Shown: positions 17,335-55,676 of the stretch, in pieces
How positions within the stretch are numbered: the first letter of the stretch is position 1
Layout of the letters: every line of letters begins with the position of its first letter
Source of the DNA: Pelotomaculum sp.
GTDB taxonomy: Bacteria > Bacillota > Desulfotomaculia > Desulfotomaculales > Pelotomaculaceae
Direction of reading: 5' to 3'
Length of the DNA: 64,000 nt
Assembly (NCBI GenBank): GCA_018435055.1
Contig: JAHDOA010000017.1
Span: forward strand, 1 to 64,000
Program-made: the position numbers and the translations under genes
The notes under the pieces: model-generated
What the model was told of the DNA's origin: nothing
The model's database searches: none
The model's input: the letters and a program-made list of their open reading frames with translations, nothing else

Positions 17335-18891
17335 ATGATAGCCATCGTAAAAAGTACAGCCCTTCACGGCCTGGACGGGCAGGTCGTGGAAGTAGAGGTT
17401 GACGTGTCGAACGGTCTGCCCTGCTTTGATATCGTAGGCCTGCCAGATGTCTCGGTCAGAGAATCAAAAGACCGCGTCCGCGCGGCAATAAAGAATTCAG
17501 GCTTGGAATTCCCGGTTAAGAAAATTACTGTGAACCTGGCGCCGGCTGATTTAAAAAAAGAAGGCCCCATATATGATCTGCCGATTGCGGTCGGGATCCT
17601 GGCCGCTACCGAACAGCTCACCCCTGAACAATACGGGCGTTTCGCCTACCTTGGTGAACTATCTTTAAACGGCTCACTGCGCAGTATCACCGGGACGCTA
17701 CCCAACATCCTGGCAGCTGTAGGAGCGTCAATAGACGAAATCATTGTCCCCAGAGAAAATGCCGCTGAAGCGGCGCTGGTAGAAGGCGCCGCTATCTTCC
17801 CCGCCGGTAGCCTCGCGGAGCTAACCGGTTTTTTGCGCGGTGAAAACGATATTGCGCCTTATGTTTTGGACTTAGATGGTTATATGAGAACCGCTGCGGC
17901 TGATTGGCCCGATTTCGCCGATGTAAAAGGGCAGCATAGCGCCAGGCGGGCCCTTGAGATAGCCGCTGCCGGCTCGCACAACCTGCTTATGTTCGGCAGT
18001 CCAGGTTCAGGCAAAACAATGCTGGCCCGGCGCCTGCCCGGTATTCTGCCGGACATGACTTTTTATGAATCTATTGAAACAACTAAAATTTACAGCCTGG
18101 CCGGCCTGCTCACGCCGGACACGCCTCTGGTTACCCGCAGGCCGTTCAGGGCGCCCCATCATACCGCTTCTACTATCGGCATCGTCGGCGGCGGCAGAAT
18201 ACCCCGCCCCGGCGAAATAAGCCTCGCCCACCATGGGGTTTTGTTTTTAGATGAGATGCCTGAATTCCAAAAAGACGCACTGGAGGCTCTTCGTCAGCCC
18301 CTTGAGGATGGCGTTATCACAATATCCAGGGCTACCGCCTCTCTTACATACCCCGCCAGGTTAATGCTTGTGGGCGCACTCAATCCATGTCCCTGCGGCT
18401 ATTTGGGCGATTCATTGCGCGAGTGTACGTGCACTCCTTACCAGGTGCAGCGCTATATCTCCCGCCTCTCCGGCCCGCTCCTGGACCGCATCGACATCTG
18501 CATTGAAGTGCCAAGGCTGCCTTACGAAGAAATATCCTCAAGTGTAAAACCGGAGGGTTCAGCGTCGATTAAGAAGCGGGTGGAAACGGCGCGTGGACGC
18601 CAGCGTGAGAGATTTTGCGGCATAGATCAAAAAAACGTCCGTCCTGCCCCTTCCTGCAACGCCCAAATGAGACCTGGAGAAGTACGCCGCTACTGTAAAA
18701 TGACCAAACCGGCCCGGGAACTCTTTAAGTCAGCCTTTAAAAAGCTTTCGCTGAGCGCCCGCTCCCATGACAAAATTTTAAAGGTCTCGAGGACAATAGC
18801 GGACCTTGACGGGTCCGCACTAATAGAAGAATCCCACCTGGCTGAAGCCATCCAGTACCGCTCCCTGGACAGGATTTATTCAAACTATTAG
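17335..18891 (+). CDS. comM: ComM/YifB family Mg-chelatase-like AAA+ ATPase
   Basis: Intact 518-residue YifB/ComM protein; ComM is a hexameric helicase that promotes branch migration during natural transformation. Seen: N-terminal Lon-protease-like fold (GLPDVSVRESKDRVRAA, NLAPADLKKEGPIYDLPIA), Walker A GSPGSGKTMLARRL near residue 222, RPFRAPHHTAS, LFLDEMPEF (Walker B), ALNPCPCGYLGD with the conserved cysteines, and the C-terminal helicase lid ending in [18 protein letters not shown] behind TCGGAGGC. Its 3' end is repeated four more times in this window (28818, 41241, 53757, 55677), always in the same direction. Confidence 0.95.
   Translation: MIAIVKSTALHGLDGQVVEVEVDVSNGLPCFDIVGLPDVSVRESKDRVRAAIKNSGLEFPVKKITVNLAPADLKKEGPIYDLPIAVGILAATEQLTPEQYGRFAYLGELSLNGSLRSITGTLPNILAAVGASIDEIIVPRENAAEAALVEGAAIFPAGSLAELTGFLRGENDIAPYVLDLDGYMRTAAADWPDFADVKGQHSARRALEIAAAGSHNLLMFGSPGSGKTMLARRLPGILPDMTFYESIETTKIYSLAGLLTPDTPLVTRRPFRAPHHTASTIGIVGGGRIPRPGEISLAHHGVLFLDEMPEFQKDALEALRQPLEDGVITISRATASLTYPARLMLVGALNPCPCGYLGDSLRECTCTPYQVQRYISRLSGPLLDRIDICIEVPRLPYEEISSSVKPEGSASIKKRVETARGRQRERFCGIDQKNVRPAPSCNAQMRPGEVRRYCKMTKPARELFKSAFKKLSLSARSHDKILKVSRTIADLDGSALIEESHLAEAIQYRSLDRIYSNY
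18766..18891 (+). repeat. comM 3' end, master copy of a five-copy repeat
   Basis: The last 120 bp of comM recur at 28818-28940, and shorter tails at 41241-41288 and 55677-55724; a 0.5 kb part recurs at 53757-54263. The core CGCTCCCTGGACAGG and the preceding GCCATCCA are kept in all five. This is a candidate attachment site for elements that insert at the end of comM. Confidence 0.65.
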
Positions 18892-18939: not shown

Positions 18940-19944
18940 TCAGCATATTCGTGGAATTATCACTCCACTTGGCATCTGCATTATTCTTTCCGTGCCCAGA
19001 TAAGTTATCATTAAAACTTGACCTGGGATTTCAGCTGTTATTTCACCTATAATGGAGGCTTTTCTTCCTAATGGATGTCCTCTCAGTTTCTCCAGTGCAC
19101 GTTCAGCATCTTTTTTTGAGACAATTATAACTGCTGCCCCCTCGTTGGCCAACTGATAAGGTTCCAGGCCCAGAAGTTCCATAAGGTTAGCGACAGTGGA
19201 ATCTATCGGGATTAATGATTCATCAATCTTAATACCTTTCCTGCCTTTTAAAGCCAACTCATTGAGGACAGCAGCCAACCCTCCCCTGGTCGGGTCACGC
19301 ATACACCGGACTTCCAATGAATTAAGGGGTTCAATGAGTGAAAACAAGCTGGCACAGTCGCTCTGCGGAGGTGGTTCTACCCCCAGGTTGTTCCGTGCTG
19401 CGAAAACTGATAATCCATGTGCGCCTGGCGGCGCAGTGATAATGACCCGGTCTTCAACTTGCATAGCCGATGGTGAATAATTTATCCCGTTTGGTACTAT
19501 CCCTAGCCCTGTTGTTGTGATGTAAACACCATCACAATAACCCCGTTCCACTACTTTTGTATCACCTGCAACAATTGTTAAACCATCTTTTCTTGCTGTG
19601 CTATTCATGCTCTGAACAATTATTTCAAGGTCTCCGATATCAAAACCCTCTTCTATAATAAAAGAGCATGTTAGATATAACGGTGTTGCCCCCATTACAG
19701 CAAGGTCGTTAATCGTACCGCAGACTGATAACTTTCCAATATCTCCTCCGGGAAAGAAAACTGGTTTAACCACAAAACTGTCGGTAGTCATAGCCCATTT
19801 TCCAGCCTTTAGAGATAGCATGGCAGAATCAAGCCCACTATCTAGAATAGAGTTATGGAAATACTTAATAAATAGTTCTTCCACCAACTGCTGAGTCATT
19901 GAACCGCCTGCTCCATGGGAGAGGGTAATTTTTTTATTCTTCAT
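18940..19944 (-). CDS. hypE: HypE, carbamoyl dehydratase of hydrogenase maturation
   Basis: HypE receives the carbamoyl group from HypF on its C-terminal cysteine and dehydrates it with ATP to a thiocyanate, the source of the two cyanide ligands of the Ni-Fe centre. Seen: SHGAGGSMTQQLVEELF at the start, DSAMLSLKAGKWAMTTDSFVV, GTINDLAVMGA, VAGDTKVVERG, RDPTRGGLAAVLNELA and the C-terminal PRIC with the essential last Cys. 334 aa is normal. Last gene of the hyp operon, 3 bp after hypD. Confidence 0.96.
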   Translation of the reverse strand: MKNKKITLSHGAGGSMTQQLVEELFIKYFHNSILDSGLDSAMLSLKAGKWAMTTDSFVVKPVFFPGGDIGKLSVCGTINDLAVMGATPLYLTCSFIIEEGFDIGDLEIIVQSMNSTARKDGLTIVAGDTKVVERGYCDGVYITTTGLGIVPNGINYSPSAMQVEDRVIITAPPGAHGLSVFAARNNLGVEPPPQSDCASLFSLIEPLNSLEVRCMRDPTRGGLAAVLNELALKGRKGIKIDESLIPIDSTVANLMELLGLEPYQLANEGAAVIIVSKKDAERALEKLRGHPLGRKASIIGEITAEIPGQVLMITYLGTERIMQMPSGVIIPRIC

Positions 19945-19947
19945 AAT

Positions 19948-21048
19948 TTACACTTTCATTATTGACGGGTCTTGATAACGGTCGGGATAGTTATAGCTGG
20001 CTGCGCATGACCCTTCAGACGAAACCATACAAGGACCTACGGGGTTGTCCGGTTTGCATACCGAGCCAAAAAGAAGGCACTCCCACGGCATTTTAACCCC
20101 CCGCAGGATTTCTCCACAGGAACAAGTTGCAATTGGCGCCCTTTTAATAATCCTGTTTCCTGGATTAAACCTGTAAAACGCATCAAAGTCCCGAAAGTTT
20201 TTTCGAATTGCCAGTCCACTTTCTGAAATCACTCCTAATCCTCGCCATGAAGTATCACAAACTTCAAAATACTTACTTATATATTCTCTGGCTAAAGGCG
20301 CCCCCTCCTTATTTACCCCCCGTTTATACTGAATCTCAATTCTGCAAGACTTCTCCGAGATTTGTTCTAAAATTGCATAAATACCTTCCAGGATATCTAC
20401 CGGTTCAAACCCCGTAATCACTCCGGGCTTGGACCAAGTCTTAGCAAGAGGTTGATAATCATCTGTCCCGATTACGGTGCTGACATGGCCGGGCAGTAAA
20501 AAACCATCGATATAGTTATTATCCTCTCTAACTAATTCCATTAAAACAGGCGGGATTCTCTTATGAAAGGACAGTACGCTAAAGTTCTTTATCCTTTTTT
20601 TCCGGACTAAATCAATCATAACAGCTGCAACCGGCGCTGTGGTCTCAAAACCTATCCCTATAAAAACAACTTCTCTCGCTTGGTTCTGCTCCGCGTAATA
20701 TACTGCCTCCAGGGGAAAAACTGTAACGCGAACGTCTGCACCCTCTCCATTAAGTTTTTCCAGGCTGCCCCCGCTGCCTGGCACTCTGTATAAATCACCG
20801 AAAGTGAATACGGTTACACCTGTAATCCTTGCCAACTCCTGGATTAAATCAATATCACTTTCTTCTGTAACGCAGACCGGGCAGCCCGGTCCGGAAACAA
20901 GCTTTATTCCGGTAGGGAGAAGCTGCTTTATTCCAAAACGGGCAATATTCATGGTATGCGTACCGCATACTTCCATGATCCTTACCGGATATGATACCTT
21001 GCCGGGGATCTTCTGTGCCAGCTGACTTATTGCTGCCTTGTTTACCAA
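19948..21048 (-). CDS. hypD: HypD, Fe-S scaffold protein of hydrogenase maturation
   Basis: With HypC it assembles the Fe(CN)2CO unit. Seen: MEVCGTHTMNIARFG, SGPGCPVCVTEESDIDLI, the central GFEPVDILEGIY and the C-terminal cysteine set CSCGEILRGVKMPWECLLFG...CKPDNPVGPCMVSSEGSC that holds the 4Fe-4S cluster and redox thiols. The frame opens at 21087, inside hypC; I choose TTG at 21048 because GGGGAGGAAA lies 12 nt upstream and it gives 366 aa, the normal length. Confidence 0.94.
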   Translation of the reverse strand: MVNKAAISQLAQKIPGKVSYPVRIMEVCGTHTMNIARFGIKQLLPTGIKLVSGPGCPVCVTEESDIDLIQELARITGVTVFTFGDLYRVPGSGGSLEKLNGEGADVRVTVFPLEAVYYAEQNQAREVVFIGIGFETTAPVAAVMIDLVRKKRIKNFSVLSFHKRIPPVLMELVREDNNYIDGFLLPGHVSTVIGTDDYQPLAKTWSKPGVITGFEPVDILEGIYAILEQISEKSCRIEIQYKRGVNKEGAPLAREYISKYFEVCDTSWRGLGVISESGLAIRKNFRDFDAFYRFNPGNRIIKRAPIATCSCGEILRGVKMPWECLLFGSVCKPDNPVGPCMVSSEGSCAASYNYPDRYQDPSIMKV

Positions 21049-21052
21049 AATA

Positions 21053-21256
21053 TTAGATTTCCTCCCCACCAAAACAATAAATATCATCCAACCCTTTCAT
21101 CACATGCAGAGCAAAGCCTGCATGCACCAGGACAAAATCACCGATTTCGAGACCGGAAACCAGGGCGGTACATATTTTTATACGGCTGCCCTCCAAGTCC
21201 ACTTCAGCTTCATCCCCTGATAAGGACAAGACCCTGGCAGGAATCGCTATACACAC
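21053..21256 (-). CDS. hypC: HypC, hydrogenase maturation chaperone
   Basis: 67-residue OB-fold chaperone that carries the iron unit with HypD and docks on the large subunit. Seen: MCIAIPARVLSL with Cys2 at the extreme N-terminus, the residue needed for function; AEVDLEGSRIKICTALV; GDFVLVHAGFALHVM. Stop overlaps the upstream part of the hypD frame; start follows the hypF stop by 2 bp. Confidence 0.95.
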   Translation of the reverse strand: MCIAIPARVLSLSGDEAEVDLEGSRIKICTALVSGLEIGDFVLVHAGFALHVMKGLDDIYCFGGEEI

Positions 21257-21258
21257 GG

Positions 21259-23247
21259 CTATAACCTCCCCGCCATAACAGCCTGGCCTAAACTTATTCC
21301 ACCGTCATTGGGAGGTACCTGCCGGTGAATAAGAACAATAAATCCTTCCTTTTCCAGGCTGTTTAAAAGCCCTGATAACAGGAAAGCGTTCTGCATTGAG
21401 CCTCCGCTAAGGGCTGCTGTGCTAATACCAGTCGCCTGACGAAGCACTTTAAAGGTTTCGATAATCATTTTTTCCACAGTACGGTGAAATTTGGCCGCAA
21501 TATACCCTTTATCCCTCTTCTTCTCAAGATCTTTCATAACCAGAGGCCACATTTCCCGTACTGAGATTATCTTCATAGAATCAGAAGCTGCAATAGAAAA
21601 AGGATAATAATCCTCAGTTCTTTCACGGCATAACGCTTCCAGCCTCATGGCCGCCTCTCCTTCATAACTGTTCAAAGTACATATTCCTAAAATGGCCGCC
21701 GCGGCGTCAAAAAGACGCCCACAACTGGAAGTCAGGATACAATTTTGGTTGCTGGCAAGCAGTCTTTTATAGAGTGCCCCCTCCCCTTCCGGTAATTTTA
21801 AGTACCTTGCCAACCTTTTTTCATCCTTGAACTCCCCCTGCTGAAGTAAATACAACAGGGCCATCCTGTCCGGTCTTAGGGCCATGCCGTCACTTGCCAG
21901 GCAGTGTACATATTCCAGATGGGCCACACGTTTAAAGAACCCGTTTTTACCGGCAAAAAATTCAAAGCCCCAAATTGCCCCATCTTGCCCATATCCTGAT
22001 CCATCGCAAACAAGCCCCAGCACGTCTCCACCATAGTTGTTTTCGGCCAGGCAGCTGGCAAGATGCGCCTCATGATGCTGAATGCCAATCATTTCAATTC
22101 CCAGACCTTGTGCGAACCTGGTCGTAATATAATCCGGATGGAGATCATGGGCTGCAACAACAGGATTGGCCTGAAAATACTGCTGATAGTTTACAATAGC
22201 CTTCGCAAACTCATTAAAACAAATCTTATTGCTTAAATCGCCTATATGCTGACTTAGATAAGCGTTATCTCCCTTTAACAAACAAAAGGTATTCTTTAAA
22301 TCGCCACCCAGAGCCAACACAGGATATGGAGTGGATTGAACCTTAATTGGCAAAGGTACATATCCTCGACTCCTCCGGATGATCTGCATTCTATTTCTTG
22401 CAACCCTGGTGATGGAATCATCACAAAGGTTCAAAATTCTGCGGTCATGTAAAAGGAAAAAATCAGCAATTCCTCTCAGCCTGGCCAAAGCTTCTGCATT
22501 ATCGCAGGCAATGGACTCATCGCTCCTATTACCGCTGGTCATTACCAGGATCTCCAGCCGGGAACCAAAAAGAAGATGGTGAAGGGGTGTGTAGGGCAGC
22601 ATAACGCCCAAACTATTCAAACCGGGGTTCAGAAAATATGGAAGTTCCGTCTCTTTTACCTGCTGCAAAATCACAATGGGCGCTTGATCACTATTTAATA
22701 GCTCTTCTTCTGCCTGAGATACTCTGCAGTATCTTTTTACCGTCTCTATATCCCTTGCCATAACGGCAAAAGGTTTTGTTTCTCGCTTCTTTCTGCGCCG
22801 CAGTTTGTTGACAGCATCCCCGTTTTTTGCATCACACACAAGATGAAATCCGCCTATACTTTTTACAGCGCCAATAAGACCTCGTTCCAGTAAAGCCGCA
22901 TAATCTTCAGAGTATGGCCTCATCTCAACATCAAGGCAAACCAATGTGGGGCCACAATCAGGACAAGCATTGGGCTGAGCATGAAAACGCCTGCTTAATG
23001 GTTCCTCATATTCCCCCTGGCACTTTGGGCACATGGTAAAAAAGTCCATGGTTGTATTCTTTCTGTCATAGGGAGTTCTCTCTATTATGCTAAAACGCGG
23101 CCCACAATTTGTACAGTTAATAAAGGGAAACTTATATCTCCTGTCAGCGGGGTCGCTTAGTTCCTTTCGGCATTCCTGACAAATAGCCAGGTCCGGTGAT
23201 ATGTAAACATCATCAAATCCAATCCCCTGCGCCACCCCTGTGACCAT
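21259..23247 (-). CDS. hypF: HypF carbamoyltransferase lacking the acylphosphatase domain
   Basis: HypF makes the carbamoyl group for HypE from carbamoyl phosphate and ATP. Seen: zinc-finger region with CQECRKEL, CTNCGPRFSI, CPKCQGEY and CPDCGPTL; YrdC-like domain with KSIGGFHLVCDA and KPFAVMARD; Kae1-like domain with HDLHPDYITTRFAQ, QHHEAHLASCLAE and GLVCDGSGYG. About 662 aa, where the family has about 750. The missing part is the N-terminal acylphosphatase domain: only its first strand and loop, VTGVAQGIGF (family VxGxVQGVGFRPFV), remain, and they run straight into VYISPDLAICQEC. The ATG at 23247 overlaps the hypB stop as TAATG; a GTG at 23295 would only add 16 residues of hypB sequence in another frame. 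Confidence 0.9.
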   Translation of the reverse strand: MVTGVAQGIGFDDVYISPDLAICQECRKELSDPADRRYKFPFINCTNCGPRFSIIERTPYDRKNTTMDFFTMCPKCQGEYEEPLSRRFHAQPNACPDCGPTLVCLDVEMRPYSEDYAALLERGLIGAVKSIGGFHLVCDAKNGDAVNKLRRRKKRETKPFAVMARDIETVKRYCRVSQAEEELLNSDQAPIVILQQVKETELPYFLNPGLNSLGVMLPYTPLHHLLFGSRLEILVMTSGNRSDESIACDNAEALARLRGIADFFLLHDRRILNLCDDSITRVARNRMQIIRRSRGYVPLPIKVQSTPYPVLALGGDLKNTFCLLKGDNAYLSQHIGDLSNKICFNEFAKAIVNYQQYFQANPVVAAHDLHPDYITTRFAQGLGIEMIGIQHHEAHLASCLAENNYGGDVLGLVCDGSGYGQDGAIWGFEFFAGKNGFFKRVAHLEYVHCLASDGMALRPDRMALLYLLQQGEFKDEKRLARYLKLPEGEGALYKRLLASNQNCILTSSCGRLFDAAAAILGICTLNSYEGEAAMRLEALCRERTEDYYPFSIAASDSMKIISVREMWPLVMKDLEKKRDKGYIAAKFHRTVEKMIIETFKVLRQATGISTAALSGGSMQNAFLLSGLLNSLEKEGFIVLIHRQVPPNDGGISLGQAVMAGRL

Positions 23248-23906
23248 TATGCTTTTGGCGAATCTTGTGTCTTCCTTTTCAGCCAGCAAATCCACGATTC
23301 CATCCCTTCGCCTGTACTTGCGCTCATTTCAAAAACAGTAATCTCAGGGTTTATCTTATTCATATCCTGATAGAACTTTTCCCGGTTAAAATCTGTATAC
23401 TCCAATAAATCAATTTTATTGAGAATACATACTTCAGCTTTCTCAAAAATCGCAGGGTATTTGGCGACCTTATCGCTGCCTTCCGGGACTGACAGTATAA
23501 CTATTTTGCCATCCTCGCCCAGCTCAAAGGCCGCCGGGCAGATTAGATTCCCGACATTTTCAATAAATAAAAGCTGGATTTTTTCCAGGGGCAGTTCTTT
23601 GAGAGCCTCAGCTACCATAGCTGCGTCAAGGTGGCAGGCGCCCTGTGTATTAAGCTGGATTACGGGGACCCCCAACTTCCCAATACGCTCCGCATCCCTT
23701 GCTGTCTGGACATCTCCTTCAATAACGCCAATAGAAATATCAGCGCCTGCCCTCTTGATAGTTTCTTCCAAAAGTGTGGTCTTGCCGGCCCCAGGTGAAC
23801 TGATTAAATTCAGCGCCGTCAGTCCTTTCCCGGCCAACAGCCGCCTGTTTTCCCGGGCTGATTCGGTATTTGCCTTTAAAATGTCCGCAAAAATATTAAT
23901 CTGCAT
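23247..23906 (-). CDS. hypB: HypB, nickel-insertion GTPase
   Basis: SIMIBI-class GTPase that helps HypA deliver nickel to the hydrogenase large subunit. Seen: P-loop SSPGAGKTTLLEETI near residue 36, GVIEGDVQTARDAERI, the metal-binding GACHLDAAMV, IENVGNLICPAAFELG, and the guanine motif ILNKIDLL. 219 aa; no histidine-rich N-terminal extension, so it has no nickel store. Overlaps hypF by 1 nt. Confidence 0.95.
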   Translation of the reverse strand: MQINIFADILKANTESARENRRLLAGKGLTALNLISSPGAGKTTLLEETIKRAGADISIGVIEGDVQTARDAERIGKLGVPVIQLNTQGACHLDAAMVAEALKELPLEKIQLLFIENVGNLICPAAFELGEDGKIVILSVPEGSDKVAKYPAIFEKAEVCILNKIDLLEYTDFNREKFYQDMNKINPEITVFEMSASTGEGMESWICWLKRKTQDSPKA

Positions 23907-23912
23907 CTGCCT

Positions 23913-24254
23913 TCACTCTCCTTCCAGGTATTCGATAATCATTTCCATCCCCTGGATGATCCTGGTCTCCTGGCTTTTGCATTTTGGACAGTGATAACCA
24001 TACTCAAGCCAGGAATACCGGTTGCTGCATGCATCGCATTGTGCCAGAGCTTTTCTATATTCCGCCAAAAGACGTGCTTCTTCAGCCATAGTACCTTTCT
24101 TCAGTACATGAAAAGAGAAATCTAATGCTTCCGGCATGATGTATAAAAGCTCACCGAGAACAACTTTTATTTCGTTAATTTTTTTTAGCCCATATGCGCC
24201 GGCAGCTTCTTCTGCCTGCCACAGGATTTGTTGAGTAAAGGCTAACTCGTGCAT
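23913..24254 (-). CDS. hypA: HypA, nickel metallochaperone
   Basis: Binds nickel through the N-terminal Met-His and passes it to HypB and the large subunit. Seen: MHELAFTQQILWQAEEAA, where His2 is the nickel ligand; VVLGELLYIMPEALDFSFHVL; zinc site CDACSNRY...CPKCKSQET. The true start must be the ATG at 24254, since His2 has to be the second residue; AAAGG lies 8 nt upstream. It overlaps the end of the protease gene slightly. Confidence 0.94.
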   Translation of the reverse strand: MHELAFTQQILWQAEEAAGAYGLKKINEIKVVLGELLYIMPEALDFSFHVLKKGTMAEEARLLAEYRKALAQCDACSNRYSWLEYGYHCPKCKSQETRIIQGMEMIIEYLEGE

Positions 24255-24258
24255 AAAA

Positions 24259-24753
24259 TCAACCTTTTTCAAGAATCCGGTCTATCTCCATGATTACTTC
24301 GGATACCAGGGCTGGAACGGCTAACATTACAGGGGATGAAATCTGGCTGCCAAAGTCCAGGTTAGCAGGCTCCACTCCAAATACAATCAATTCTACAGGC
24401 AATCCCGTTAAGGCCCTGGACCATTCAATAATATCCGCAGGCAACAACCCGTGACTGTCCATGCGTTCATAAATTGAGGAGACATCCTCCCAATTTTCAA
24501 AATGATATACACTCCCTGGTCTGCCTCCCGCACGGACGGCATCAATTATGATTACACAGCGTGAACAGGATATCTCGTGCAAGTAATAAAACATGGCCGT
24601 TCCAACTTCTAAAATACATATGGATTCCGGCCACTTTTTCGTATCACGGAGCAAACTAATGACCATACTTCCGACACCATCGTCAGACCTGAGGATGTTT
24701 CCTGCCCCAAGGACCAGGACTTGATATTGAGGTAATAATTCTAATTTGCCCAT
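24259..24753 (-). CDS. HyaD/HycI-type hydrogenase maturation endopeptidase
   Basis: 164-residue protease that removes the C-terminal tail of the large subunit after nickel insertion. Seen: LVLGAGNILRSDDGVGSMV (nickel-sensing acidic residues), IIIDAVRAGGRPGSVY, MDSHGLLPADI and VFGVEPANLDFG. First gene of the minus-strand hyp operon, divergent from the hydrogenase genes by 64 bp. The tail it would cut is the 12 residues after DPCLACATH in the large subunit at 25774. Confidence 0.92.
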   Translation of the reverse strand: MGKLELLPQYQVLVLGAGNILRSDDGVGSMVISLLRDTKKWPESICILEVGTAMFYYLHEISCSRCVIIIDAVRAGGRPGSVYHFENWEDVSSIYERMDSHGLLPADIIEWSRALTGLPVELIVFGVEPANLDFGSQISSPVMLAVPALVSEVIMEIDRILEKG

Positions 24754-24817: not shown

Positions 24818-25777
24818 ATGCAGCAAAAACAATTCGTATCCCTTTGTGAAAATTGGTTAAAAAACCCACGCAGTCCCCTGTCGAAAAAACTTCTTCCTGC
24901 CATAGAACAATACCGCTTGAAAACTGGCGAAAAACTTCCCGTCATCTGGGTAGAAACCAGCGACAGCGGCGACAATAATATCTCTTTTCTGAACACTTCA
25001 GCTCCGGATGCAGGCAGAGTTTTCCGGAAAATAATTGACCTTCTGTACAGCAATACTTTCATGGCCGCCCAGGGCCCGGATGCCATACGTTTACTGCAAT
25101 ATGCAGCCCGGCAATACCAGGGGCAGTTTACCCTGGTAGTGGAAGGAGCAATCCCCATCAAAGATAATGGTGTCTACAACATTATCTTTAAAACTCGGGA
25201 TCATAGTTATACTGCACTGGAAATGGTAAAATGGCTTGGTTCCCTGGCTAAATACGTTGTGGCGCTGGGGACGTGCGCCAGTTTTGGCGGCCCTACGGCA
25301 GCAAGGCCAAATATAACCGAAAGTAAAGGAGTCCGGGATATTCTGGACAGGGAAGTAATCAATGTAAGCGGCTGCCCTATCAATCCCGACTGGTTTGTGG
25401 GAACCCTGGCCCACTTGTTGATGTTTGGCAGGCCTGAGCTTGATGATTTAGGGCGTCCTACTCTTTTTTACGGGTTCACTGTACACCGTCACTGCCAGCG
25501 CCGCTCTTACTTTGACCGGCAAGAATTCGCCCAGGAACTCGGTGATAAAGAGTGCATGTTCTCTTTGGGATGTATGGGTCCCCGTACAGGGGCAGACTGC
25601 CCATACAGGCAGTGGGTAGAAGGGGCCAACTGGCCGGTAAGGGCCAACACTCCCTGCATAGGTTGTACGAATAAAGACTTTCCGGATGGTTCAACACCCT
25701 TTTTTACACCGCTCCCTGAAAAGAATCCAGAACAAAACCAAAATCTATCCGGTCCGAAAAAGGAGGTATCCCGATGA
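24818..25777 (+). CDS. atypical [NiFe]-hydrogenase small subunit without the proximal CxxC
   Basis: Electron-transfer subunit, 319 aa, with no Tat signal, so cytoplasmic. Kept: ALGTCASFGGPTAARPN and NVSGCPINPDWFVG (two proximal ligands); distal-cluster VHRHC, KECMFSLGC; medial-cluster ADCPYRQW and TPCIGCTNKDFPDG. Lost: where families have WLxGxxCxGC, this protein reads VIWVETSDSGDNNISFLNT (residues 42-60), with Ser50 or Asp49 and Asn53 or Asp52 at the cysteine positions. Group 2a enzymes have CxxN and group 1h CxxD; here even the first Cys is absent. The frame is clean, so this is not simple decay. Start ATG 24818 has only a weak GGTG site. Overlaps the large subunit as ATGA. Confidence 0.88.
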   Translation: MQQKQFVSLCENWLKNPRSPLSKKLLPAIEQYRLKTGEKLPVIWVETSDSGDNNISFLNTSAPDAGRVFRKIIDLLYSNTFMAAQGPDAIRLLQYAARQYQGQFTLVVEGAIPIKDNGVYNIIFKTRDHSYTALEMVKWLGSLAKYVVALGTCASFGGPTAARPNITESKGVRDILDREVINVSGCPINPDWFVGTLAHLLMFGRPELDDLGRPTLFYGFTVHRHCQRRSYFDRQEFAQELGDKECMFSLGCMGPRTGADCPYRQWVEGANWPVRANTPCIGCTNKDFPDGSTPFFTPLPEKNPEQNQNLSGPKKEVSR

Positions 25778-27174
25778 CTGAGCGTGTGACATTTAGCCCC
25801 ATCACCCGATTAAGCGGACTATTATCGGCTGAAGCCACCGTGGAAAATGGGAGGATTATAGATGCTAATACCAGCAGTACTATGTTCCGCGGTTATGAGT
25901 GGATCATGTGCAATAGAAAAATAACCGATGCCGTTTACCTCACTCAGAGAGTCTGTGGAATATGTTCTTTAGCCCATGGAGCTGTGTCCAGTTATCTGTT
26001 GGACCAGGTTTTTGACAACGATATATCCGAAAATGCCCAGTACTTAAGAAATATTATGTATGCAGCCGACTTTTTACAAAACCACATCAGGCATTTTTAT
26101 CTTTTCAGCCTGCCGGATTTTGTAGTTATGCCCAATAAGCCGCCCTTTCTAAATCAGAATTTAACCGATGCACGTTTAAATGCCCAGGATAACCAGCGGT
26201 TAGTTAACAACTATTTTGAAGCCATCAAGGCTTCCCAAAAAAGCCACGAAATACTGGTCCTTTTTGGAGGCAAAGCGCCGCACCAGCACAGTTTCGTACA
26301 TGGAGGAGTGGCAGTAGCGCCTACTGCCGATAAAATCAACCGTGCCTTGGCATTACTAAGTGATATAACAGAGTTTGTCAGGGGCTGTATGATCCCTGAT
26401 ACTGAGCTGATTTCCTCTGTTTACGGTGATTACTATAAGATAGGAATAACCCCGGGCCGTTTGCTTTCTTTTGGTTTGTTCAGATTTGGGAACAAAAACG
26501 AGGAAGTGATCTGGCGAAGCGGGGTATTAAACGAAAATAAATTATCAATCCCCGACCTGAGTTTAATACATGAAGATATTACCCATTCCTGGTATGAAGT
26601 TAATAGGGATATCACCTCCCAACCATGTCTGGAACCGGCTCCTTTTAAACCTGGCGCATACAGCTGGATTAAATCTGTTAAATATGCTCATAACTTCTTT
26701 GAGGTAGGGCCACTGGCCAGGATGGTTATCAACGGTTTTTATCGTGGAAGCACATCTACCATGGATAGGATTTATGCACGAACTTTAGAGACATCCCTTA
26801 TTGTTCAACTAATGAAAGACTGGCTGACCCAGCTTATACCCGGTCCCCCTCCTATTGAGCAAAAATCAAAAATTGTTCGTGAACGGGTAATTGCAGTAAC
26901 AGACGCGATGAGGGGAACCCTTTTGCATAGTGCCATCCTTGAAAATGAGCAAATAAAAGAGTACAACATTATTACGCCTACCGTATGGAATTTTTCTCCC
27001 AAGGATCAATACGGAAATAGGGGTCCGGTGGAATCCGCTTTGATCGGCACAGAAATACCCTCCAATGACATGCTTTTCACTATACTGGGGCGGATCATCC
27101 GCTCTTTTGACCCCTGTCTGGCTTGTGCAACTCATGTCCTGGATGCAAATCACAAAAAGTCGGTAGTCTTTTAA
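25774..27174 (+). CDS. atypical [NiFe]-hydrogenase large subunit
   Basis: Catalytic subunit, 466 aa. Both nickel-binding motifs are present: RVCGICSLAHG (Cys61, Cys64) and DPCLACATH (Cys448, Cys451, His454), followed by a 12-residue tail VLDANHKKSVVF for the protease. Also seen: MRGTLLHSAI with the active-site Arg, ITPTVWNFSPKD. Odd: the N-terminal motif, normally TRIEGH with the proton-gate Glu, reads SPITRLSGLLSAEA, so Glu is Ser14 and His is Leu16. Translationally coupled to the small subunit. A partly deleted copy of its 3' end lies at 55421-55585. Could be a normal but divergent uptake enzyme, a sensor, or a changed function. Confidence 0.9.
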   Translation: MTERVTFSPITRLSGLLSAEATVENGRIIDANTSSTMFRGYEWIMCNRKITDAVYLTQRVCGICSLAHGAVSSYLLDQVFDNDISENAQYLRNIMYAADFLQNHIRHFYLFSLPDFVVMPNKPPFLNQNLTDARLNAQDNQRLVNNYFEAIKASQKSHEILVLFGGKAPHQHSFVHGGVAVAPTADKINRALALLSDITEFVRGCMIPDTELISSVYGDYYKIGITPGRLLSFGLFRFGNKNEEVIWRSGVLNENKLSIPDLSLIHEDITHSWYEVNRDITSQPCLEPAPFKPGAYSWIKSVKYAHNFFEVGPLARMVINGFYRGSTSTMDRIYARTLETSLIVQLMKDWLTQLIPGPPPIEQKSKIVRERVIAVTDAMRGTLLHSAILENEQIKEYNIITPTVWNFSPKDQYGNRGPVESALIGTEIPSNDMLFTILGRIIRSFDPCLACATHVLDANHKKSVVF

Positions 27175-27177
27175 ACC

Positions 27178-53756: not shown

Positions 53757-54263
53757 CGCTTGTCCCTGCGGCTATTTGGGCGATTCATTGCGCGAGTGTA
53801 CGTGCGCTCCTTACCAGGTGCAGCGCTATATCTCCCGCCTCTCCGGCCCGCTCCTGGACCGCATCGACATCTGCATTGAAGTGCCAAGGCTACCTTACGA
53901 AGAAATATCCTCAAGTGTAAAACCGGAGGGTTCAGCGTCGATTAAGAAGCGGGTGGAAACGGCGCGTGGGCGCCAGCGTGAGAGATTTTGCGGCATAGAT
54001 CAAAAAAACGGCCGTCCTTCCCCTTCCTGCAACACCCAAATGAGACCTGGAGAAGTACGCCGCTACTGTAAAATGACCAAACCGGCCCGGAAACTCTTTG
54101 AGTCAGCCTTTAAAAGCTTGCGCTGAGCGCCCGGTCCCACGATAAAATTTTAAAAGTCTCCCGTACCATAGCCGATTTGGAAGGCGCAAAACTTATCGAA
54201 GAATCCCATTTGGCAGAGGCCATCCAGTACCGCTCCCTGGACAGGATTTTTTCAAACCATTAG
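53757..54263 (+). pseudogene. comM fragment with frameshift
   Basis: Matches comM from ALNPCPCGYLGD (18388 in comM) to the stop. Reads CPCGYLGDSLREC, RYISRLSGPLLDRIDICIEV and on to [12 protein letters not shown], where one A of TTTAAAAAGC is missing (near 54111-54116), causing a TGA. Beyond it the frame continues with [17 protein letters not shown] and [14 protein letters not shown]. The final 100 bp are clearly more diverged from comM than the first 350 bp, so this copy is a mosaic. The 5' two thirds of comM are missing. Confidence 0.9.
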
Positions 54264-54435
54264 CAAGTCGTGAAAAATGCTTACTTTACTAATGAGAATT
54301 GTGAGGTACGCTGCAAAGCGTTCCTTTTTTGATCTGCTCCCCGCCTGGCAATTGTCACCTAAATATGGAACTATGAATAAAATGTGGCAGGCATATATCC
54401 TTCCATTATGTGGGGGTAAAATAGGAGGATTGAAA

Positions 54436-55362
54436 ATGTTGTCAAATGAAGACTTTGTTAGACAATCTCTGGATTTAAACCTGTTCTTTCTAAGAATCAT
54501 GAAAGAACATTCCTTCTTTTTAGAAGCAGGCTTCACTCCTGTAAATGCAGACCTGGCCCGTCAGGCAGATGCGTTTAAAACTCAGTTCGAGGCATTGTTA
54601 AAAGAAGTGGTTTTTATTGCTAACGGATTTATCAGTCCGGACGTAGCAACCTCTGGAGAGGTAGTAACCGATTTTACACTTGACGCTGAAAAGGCCACTA
54701 CTTTTTTCACGGGAATTCAACTTGATACCAGCATAACCATGGCGGAGCTTTCTCTGACAAAGGGCGTCCAGCAGTTAAATATGCAACCACTGGTACAACG
54801 AGTCGCTGATATTAACCAGAGAGCCATTGTCCTTTTGCCAGGTTTAATCAATTTAAAGACCATAGTACTGAACAGTATGTTGACTTGCAGAATATTTACG
54901 TTTAACTATCCACTTTTAATAGACCACATACGCAGGGAGGCCATATTATTCCTGGAACTGCTCAATAGATTACAGAACAGGGTTGTCATAGATATCGCCA
55001 GGTTTGCCCTTGAACAAGAATCTTTCTGGAACAGGATTATGGCAGAACATGCGAAATTCATCAGGGGACTCTTAGATCCGACTGAAGAAGCCTTGTTCCA
55101 GACAGCTGATAAATTTGGCAGGGAATTTGATATGCTGACTGCGGAAGCCCTGGCATCACAAAACCAGATCGCACTTTTGCCGCAGGTTACCCAGGAAAGC
55201 CTGACAGAAACCGTGGCGATAAGGAATTTTAAAAGGCAAGGTACGGAAGGCATACTTGCCTGTAAAATAAGATCTATTATCATACCTTTATTGGGTGATC
55301 ACGTTCTTAGGGAGGCTAATCATTACCTGCGATTATTAAAAATATTCAGTACCATTGTTTAA
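54436..55362 (+). CDS. DUF2935 family protein
   Basis: 308-residue helical protein of the DUF2935 family, unknown function, common in spore-forming Firmicutes. Seen: two related halves, each with an acidic/His-containing helix: LFFLRIMKEHSFFLEAGFTP and QESFWNRIMAEHAKFIRGLLDP, a pattern suggesting a ferritin-like metal site (Glu/His). ATG behind AGGAGGATTGAAA. It lies between the frameshifted comM copy and the hydrogenase remnant, i.e. inside the rearranged region. Confidence 0.85.
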   Translation: MLSNEDFVRQSLDLNLFFLRIMKEHSFFLEAGFTPVNADLARQADAFKTQFEALLKEVVFIANGFISPDVATSGEVVTDFTLDAEKATTFFTGIQLDTSITMAELSLTKGVQQLNMQPLVQRVADINQRAIVLLPGLINLKTIVLNSMLTCRIFTFNYPLLIDHIRREAILFLELLNRLQNRVVIDIARFALEQESFWNRIMAEHAKFIRGLLDPTEEALFQTADKFGREFDMLTAEALASQNQIALLPQVTQESLTETVAIRNFKRQGTEGILACKIRSIIIPLLGDHVLREANHYLRLLKIFSTIV

Positions 55363-55420
55363 TGTAAATAAATGAGGCATGCAACGTCCACTCACTTCTT
55401 CGTGGAGGCATGATGTCCCA

Positions 55421-55585
55421 TATTGTTACACTAATGAAAGATTGGCTGAACCAGCTTATACCCGGCCCCCCTTCAATGACATGCTTTTCACTATACTTGG
55501 GCGGATCATCCGCTCTTTTGACCCCTGTCTGGCTTGTGCAACTCATGTCCTGGATGCAAATCACAAAAAGTCGGTAGTTTTGTGA
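55421..55585 (+). pseudogene. internally deleted copy of the hydrogenase large subunit 3' end
   Basis: LMKDWLNQLIPGPP matches residues near 345-360 of the large subunit at 25774, then after a jump of about 210 bp the DNA continues NDMLFTILGRIIRSFDPCLA and CATHVLDANHKKSVVL with a stop. The junction lies in a C-run (CCCCCC/TTC versus CCCCCT), and the two parts are in different frames. About 160 bp, over 90 percent alike to 26797-27175 by eye. Confidence 0.9.
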
Positions 55586-55676
55586 ACAAGAAAAGTTGGC
55601 ATTCCACCTATTTTTTAAAGGCTCTTTATATTGTCGACCTGGACGGCGCAGAGCTTAAACGAGGCGCACCTCGCCC

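Follow-up and report, generated by a model that had tools for sequence, protein, structure and literature searches.

Organization of the hydrogenase locus

The window (the whole 64,000-nucleotide stretch of Pelotomaculum sp. DNA analysed here) carries the genes for the small and large subunits of a [NiFe]-hydrogenase, which overlap by 4 bases with the large subunit second. On the opposite strand lies a maturation set (18940-24753) made up of a HypA-like protein, a HycI-type protease, HypB, HypF, HypD and HypE (Table 1), so that the full adjoining hyp operon claimed in a first-pass annotation, made from the DNA letters without database searches, was confirmed.

Table 1. Features of the hydrogenase locus, in window coordinates
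Feature	Position	Strand	Basis
hyp maturation genes, from low to high coordinate hypE, hypD, hypF, hypB, hypA	18940..24272	-	named from sequence
Hydrogenase maturation endopeptidase (HycI/HyaD type), divergent from small subunit	24259..24753	-	sequence, neighbourhood clustering
[NiFe]-hydrogenase small subunit, 319 aa, without Tat signal	24818..25777	+	TIGR00391, PF14720, PF01058, AF2 fold match
DSGDNN, residues 49-54, replacing proximal-cluster CxxC	24962..24979	+	sequence and clade alignment
Cys153, third proximal ligand (GTCASFGG)	25274..25276	+	invariant in 61-row alignment
Cys186, fourth proximal ligand (SGCPINPDW)	25373..25375	+	invariant in 61-row alignment
Distal ligands His223, Cys226, Cys246, Cys252	25484..25573	+	invariant in 61-row alignment
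Medial [3Fe-4S]-type ligands Cys261, Cys280, Cys283 (NWPV, Pro at fourth place)	25598..25666	+	invariant in 61-row alignment
[NiFe]-hydrogenase large subunit, 466 aa, C-terminal extension beyond CATH	25774..27174	+	PF00374
Ser14, replacing conserved proton-gate Glu of RxEGH	25813..25815	+	alignment with clade

The small-subunit frame was open over its 319 aa and reads VIWVETSDSGDNNISFLNT at approximately 24941-25000, the translation around the proximal motif being ...KLPVIWVETSDSGDNNISFLNTSAPD.... The protein scored above the curated cut-off of TIGR00391 (223.6 bits against 179.5) and above that of PF14720 (104.3 bits against 27), and PF01058 was also matched. The AlphaFold2 model (mean pLDDT 83.5) superimposed on 1cc1_S, a [NiFeSe] small subunit, with a Z of 31.5 and an rmsd of 2.2 over 261 residues, and the fold is thus predicted to be intact. 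No Tat signal (RRxFxK) was found, the N-terminus being MQQKQFVSLCENWLKNPRSPLSKK; the small subunits of clade C retain a SRREFxKLC Tat motif. In the large subunit, both CxxC pairs of the Ni-Fe site (Cys61/Cys64 and Cys448/Cys451) are kept, and L2 reads DPCLACATH with Cys codons and no selenocysteine, so that the enzyme does not qualify as a [NiFeSe] hydrogenase. By these findings the gene encodes a group-1-type [NiFe]-hydrogenase small subunit, probably of an enzyme with two subunits. The genome holds no other full PF00374 hydrogenase and gave five [FeFe] domain matches.

Elsewhere in the window, pieces of the large-subunit 3' end (26794-26850 and 27058-27176) are copied at 55416-55587 (89-96%), and the 3' end of a ComM/YifB-like gene (18388-18891) is copied at 53761-54263 (93%). 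Both copied segments lie approximately 28-35 kb from their originals and flank an unrelated 361-aa ORF (54277-55362).

The proximal site lacks both CxxC cysteines

The small subunit has no cysteine where the WLxGxxCxGC motif would be expected. Both cysteines of CxxC are gone, and the codons of the polar residues found there lie at 24962-24964 (Asp49), 24965-24967 (Ser50) and 24971-24973 (Asp52) on the + strand. The site therefore fails as a four-cysteine proximal [4Fe-4S] site, having only Cys153 and Cys186, and, with DSGDNN present, it also fails as a group 1h site, in which a proximal CxxD retains the first Cys. The nine other cluster ligands (two proximal, four distal and three medial) were all present, giving the expected medial set of three Cys with Pro and the expected distal set of His with three Cys; the alignment in which they are invariant includes canonical enzymes. 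Two claims of the first-pass annotation thus held, namely that both proximal CxxC cysteines are missing and that the other ligands and the frame are sound.

The altered motif is conserved in genes under purifying selection

Genome searches returned more than 50 relatives at 61-71% identity, hosted by Peptococcia-type Firmicutes, Negativicutes (Sporomusa), Halanaerobacter and others. Nearly without exception, their loop reads ET[NS]DSGDNNI[SA]F. When 52 clade small subunits were aligned, position 49 was Asp in 49, Cys in two and Gly in one; Ser50, Asp52 and Asn54 were found in all 52 and Asn53 in 51, and CxxC occurred in none (0/52). The Gly49 species is intact and also has Asp53 (L014). Cys49 occurs in two species, one intact (L032/L116, NCSGDNNI) and one (L065) in which the large subunit alongside has an in-frame TAG, so that its Cys49 may be drift. 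Intact clade members are found in the cultured Sporomusa ovata, S. malonica, S. silvacetica, Desulfotomaculum gibsoniae, Pelotomaculum terephthalicicum and P. propionicicum.

A sequencing or assembly error was considered as an explanation of the motif, since the window comes from a single draft genome, but a motif common to more than 50 independent relatives all but excludes it. Neither outcome that would have refuted the first-pass claim, a TGC misread as AGC or homologues that all have Cys, was borne out, as the clade shares DSGDNN.

In eight close pairs of intact copies, dN/dS was 0.06-0.20 for both subunits, showing that intact copies are under strong purifying selection. Clade-wide conservation, purifying selection and the intact remaining ligands together speak for a protein that functions with a changed proximal site, although its activity and any cluster are inferred from sequence alone. 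The earlier proposal that the enzyme works, with either a new proximal cluster or none, is supported to that extent; the presence of a cluster could not be read from the sequence. That the trait is clade-wide, that the gate Glu is lost from the large subunit and that some relatives carry broken copies all go beyond that proposal.

Damaged copies in some relatives

Hydrogenase copies damaged by frameshifts, stops or fragmentation were found in approximately 11 of approximately 55 clade species, about one in five. They comprise in-frame TAG codons in the large subunit (L008/L037 and L065), frameshifts (L053, L060, L066, L068/L119 and L051/L121), a gap (L056), a small-subunit frameshift (L026/L070) and wreckage (L073 and L075). 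Some may possibly be draft-genome errors. Broken copies occur in isolates as well (S. schinkii, H. jeridensis, S. acidovorans and D. geothermicus), indicating that some hosts can do without the enzyme. The three in-frame stops that interrupt large subunits are all TAG; pyrrolysine at these codons was rejected because PylS was not above the cut-off in the three genomes, and they were taken as real stops.

These copies are the point in favour of a degenerating enzyme, in which the motif would be decay after the hydrogenase had lost its use. Against this, the same DSGDNN is found in distant Firmicutes, dN/dS is low, the other ligands are kept and maturation genes often adjoin. Decay would not fix one hexapeptide, and we consider this explanation very unlikely.

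Gene neighbourhood

The maturation endopeptidase gene adjoins the small subunit at many clade loci. Apart from the protease and hyp genes the neighbours vary, and neither a recurrent electron-transfer partner gene nor a recurrent sensor-kinase partner was found around clade loci. The downstream cytochrome b gene that is usual in clade B (see below) is likewise absent from the DSGDNN loci. That there are only two genes, with neither a signal peptide nor a constant partner gene, points to a soluble dimer in the cytoplasm, although this is inferred.

In a Sporomusa-type branch (L048, L052, L054, L057, L058, L061, L062, L063 and L074), the large subunits stop exactly at CATH, so that C-terminal cleavage is unneeded; the protease gene was absent beside the large subunit in the loci of this branch that were checked.

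A link with nitrogen fixation through H2 recapture was also considered and rejected: among genomes of the class that carry a clade member, approximately half had nifH above the cut-off, compared to 55/113 overall, and no nifH was above the cut-off in the window's own genome.

Loss of the proton-gate glutamate

At the gate position of the large subunit, Ser was found in 47 of the 49 readable clade members, with Glu and Ala in one each (1/49). The Pro preceding the active-site Arg is Met (AMRG) in every readable clade member. The proton relay of [NiFe]-hydrogenases is described as a Glu near the Ni-bound Cys (PMC11212049), which we take to be the Glu of RxEGH. As the proximal motif is altered and this Glu is Ser14, both the electron exit and the proton exit of the enzyme would be changed.

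Origin of the DSGDNN motif

A tree was built from both subunits with the motif columns and the gate-Glu column left out, using a quick search with SH-aLRT support only. The DSGDNN proteins formed a single clade (clade A; SH-aLRT 100). Nearest to it was L124 (NACSGDSI; 97), which is a long branch, followed by L071/L125/L126/L135 (NACSGDSI; 99) and then by CxGN forms. A second branch, clade B, carries CxGD/CxGN, and the canonical CxxC proteins lie outside, so that the DSGDNN clade is nested within CxGD/CxGN homologues. The CxxC proteins have the Tat signal and the RxEGH Glu, and clades A and B are without both; on the tree, the gate Glu was lost earlier than the second cysteine. Cys49 sits inside the DSGD clade, which is suggestive, though no proof, that Asp and Cys are exchangeable at this position.

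The sisters' NACSGDSI and the clade's NDSGDNNI have the run SGD in common, displaced by one place. With the clade's own residue frequencies, the probability of SGD arising by chance at one given shift is approximately 0.0003. The economical reading of this shared, displaced SGD is a slip of the loop together with a Cys-to-Asp change at position 49. A path from CxxC through CxxD to DxxD with a one-residue slip is thus likely, though inferred, and it makes Asp49 and Asp52 the best ligand candidates together with Cys153 and Cys186; the candidates named in the first-pass annotation (Asp49, Ser50 and Asp52) are narrowed accordingly. In AlphaFold2 models of the window protein and the CSGD sister L124, the helix starts at Asn53 and Gly37, respectively, one place earlier in L124 relative to the Trp, a difference that favours neither loop register.

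The alternative is that no slip occurred and that an SxxN motif holds the cluster through Ser50 and/or Asn53, perhaps with Asp52. The loop from Trp44 to Ile55 is of equal length, so that an ungapped alignment is the default, and standard aligners favour this register, which puts Ser50 and Asn53 on the two cysteine positions. Groups 2a and 1f provide precedents for Asn in place of the second Cys (PMC5364354), Ser50 is invariant in the clade, and Asp52 would align with Cys19 of E. coli Hyd-1, a position that holds a supernumerary Cys in O2-tolerant enzymes (PMC5186783, PMC4747160). But all positions between the Asn and Ile of NACSGDSI must then change, with SGD rebuilt one place over, and intact members show Cys at 49 and never at 50 or 53. 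This register is regarded as unlikely.

Cys10 was rejected as a substitute ligand. Most members have it, left over from the Tat motif (KLC), but it is missing in L040, L060, L122 and the sister L124 and is therefore not a general ligand.

A putative Cys2Asp2 proximal site

Our main reading, which we hold with a probability of only approximately 0.52, is that the enzyme is a soluble hydrogenase with a Cys2Asp2 proximal site that most likely holds an Fe-S cluster; which residues bind the metal, whether a cluster is there, which way electrons flow and what carrier is used are all matters of inference. The proximal metal site would be held by Cys153, Cys186 and the carboxylates of Asp49 and Asp52. 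Asp52 would derive from the Asp of an ancestral CxxD, and Asp49 would take over from the remaining Cys after the one-residue loop slip. The site would most likely house a [4Fe-4S] or [2Fe-2S] cluster that links Ni-Fe to the intact medial ([3Fe-4S]) and distal clusters, beyond which electrons would be exchanged with a soluble carrier whose gene does not adjoin the hydrogenase genes. The proximal cluster lies approximately 11 Å from the Ni (PMC11212049). A redox centre at the proximal site is favoured because the medial and distal sites keep an invariant ligand set, and without such a centre the relay would be interrupted at this spacing.

It remains possible that the proximal site has no Fe-S cluster and is either a mononuclear Fe/Zn site or empty, in an H2 sensor, a low-activity enzyme or a protein with another role. 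Two Cys and two carboxylates also fit a mononuclear metal, the gate Glu is gone as well and broken copies are common. Sensing has been speculated for a cytoplasmic [NiFe] enzyme of S. schinkii, whose identity with the clade member is uncertain (PMC5113046). Against this stand the purifying selection and the invariant medial and distal ligands, which would be of little use without a proximal relay, and the lack of a recurrent sensor-kinase partner in the neighbourhood. No structure, spectroscopy or activity data on any clade member were found in the open-access literature.

What the data show directly are the sequences and how conserved they are, the nested position of the clade in the tree and the loss of the Tat signal and gate Glu. 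A bolder form of the Cys2Asp2 reading, in which a natural Cys2Asp2 Fe-S proximal centre is combined with dispensing with the canonical gate Glu, falls a little short of even odds; if true, the electron and proton exit routes would both differ from those of the textbook enzyme. Next to the Ni-Fe site, the proximal cluster is the first stop for electrons, and the response of known [NiFe]-hydrogenases to oxygen depends on it. With this clade, it can be tested directly how small a number of thiolate ligands still sustains the relay and whether the enzyme can turn over without the gate Glu.

Comparison with known hydrogenases

In the published annotation of D. gibsoniae, Desgi_1231-1230 appears as a 'simple dimeric [NiFe] hydrogenase' (PMC4148979); we infer it to be clade member L025, as the gene position fits. 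The relevant passages of that paper make no mention of its missing cysteines and give the annotation only.

The best PDB match of the window enzyme is to the group 1a periplasmic [NiFe]/[NiFeSe] hydrogenases (Dm. baculatum 1cc1, D. vulgaris HysAB), with 204 bits by sequence and the Z of 31.5 by fold, and it has the medial and distal ligands and the large-subunit L1/L2 motifs in common with them. In contrast to these enzymes, it is without CxxC and the Tat signal and has Ser for the gate Glu, Cys rather than Sec in L2, Met for Pro in AMRG and Pro rather than Cys at the medial site. On the selenocysteine of related enzymes, four canonical-type large subunits (L096, L097, L099 and L104) have an in-frame TGA at the second Cys of L1 (ITQRICGV*PISHGISS), and tRNA-Sec is present in all four genomes, making this a candidate selenocysteine in L1, not L2; in L095 the TGA is in L2, where it is usually found.

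Clade B corresponds to the cytoplasmic cytochrome-b-linked [NiFe] hydrogenase of Desulfotomaculum (Desru_2370-2372, Desgi_1398-1397). It resembles the DSGDNN enzymes in having no signal peptide, in the loss of the gate Glu, in a small subunit 45-51% identical and in the change of the second proximal Cys to Asp or Asn; it differs in that the first Cys is kept (NTCAGD, CHGN) and that a cytochrome b gene usually lies downstream. Clade B genes (L076-L089, L111 and L112) often adjoin apparent spore germination genes of the GerA/GerB type (families F7/F8), a neighbourhood hint of a possible spore-related role for clade B.

Published proximal variants retain the first Cys, with Asp in group 1h and Asn or Asp in groups 1f and 2a (PMC5364354), and FrhG has Asp60 as a single proximal Asp ligand (PMC3591093). 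All proximal variants described in the open-access literature that was searched retain at least three cysteines, and neither a two-aspartate [4Fe-4S] cluster nor the loss of both proximal cysteines was found there; the loss of both CxxC cysteines goes beyond the variants found in that literature. The clade gives a natural graded series from CxxC through CxxD/N to DxxD, in the course of which the gate Glu disappears. The group 1h/5 enzyme of R. eutropha (AH) and FrhG of methanogens are alike in having Asp for one proximal Cys (PMC5364354, PMC3591093), but they retain three proximal cysteines, whereas the DSGDNN clade retains two.
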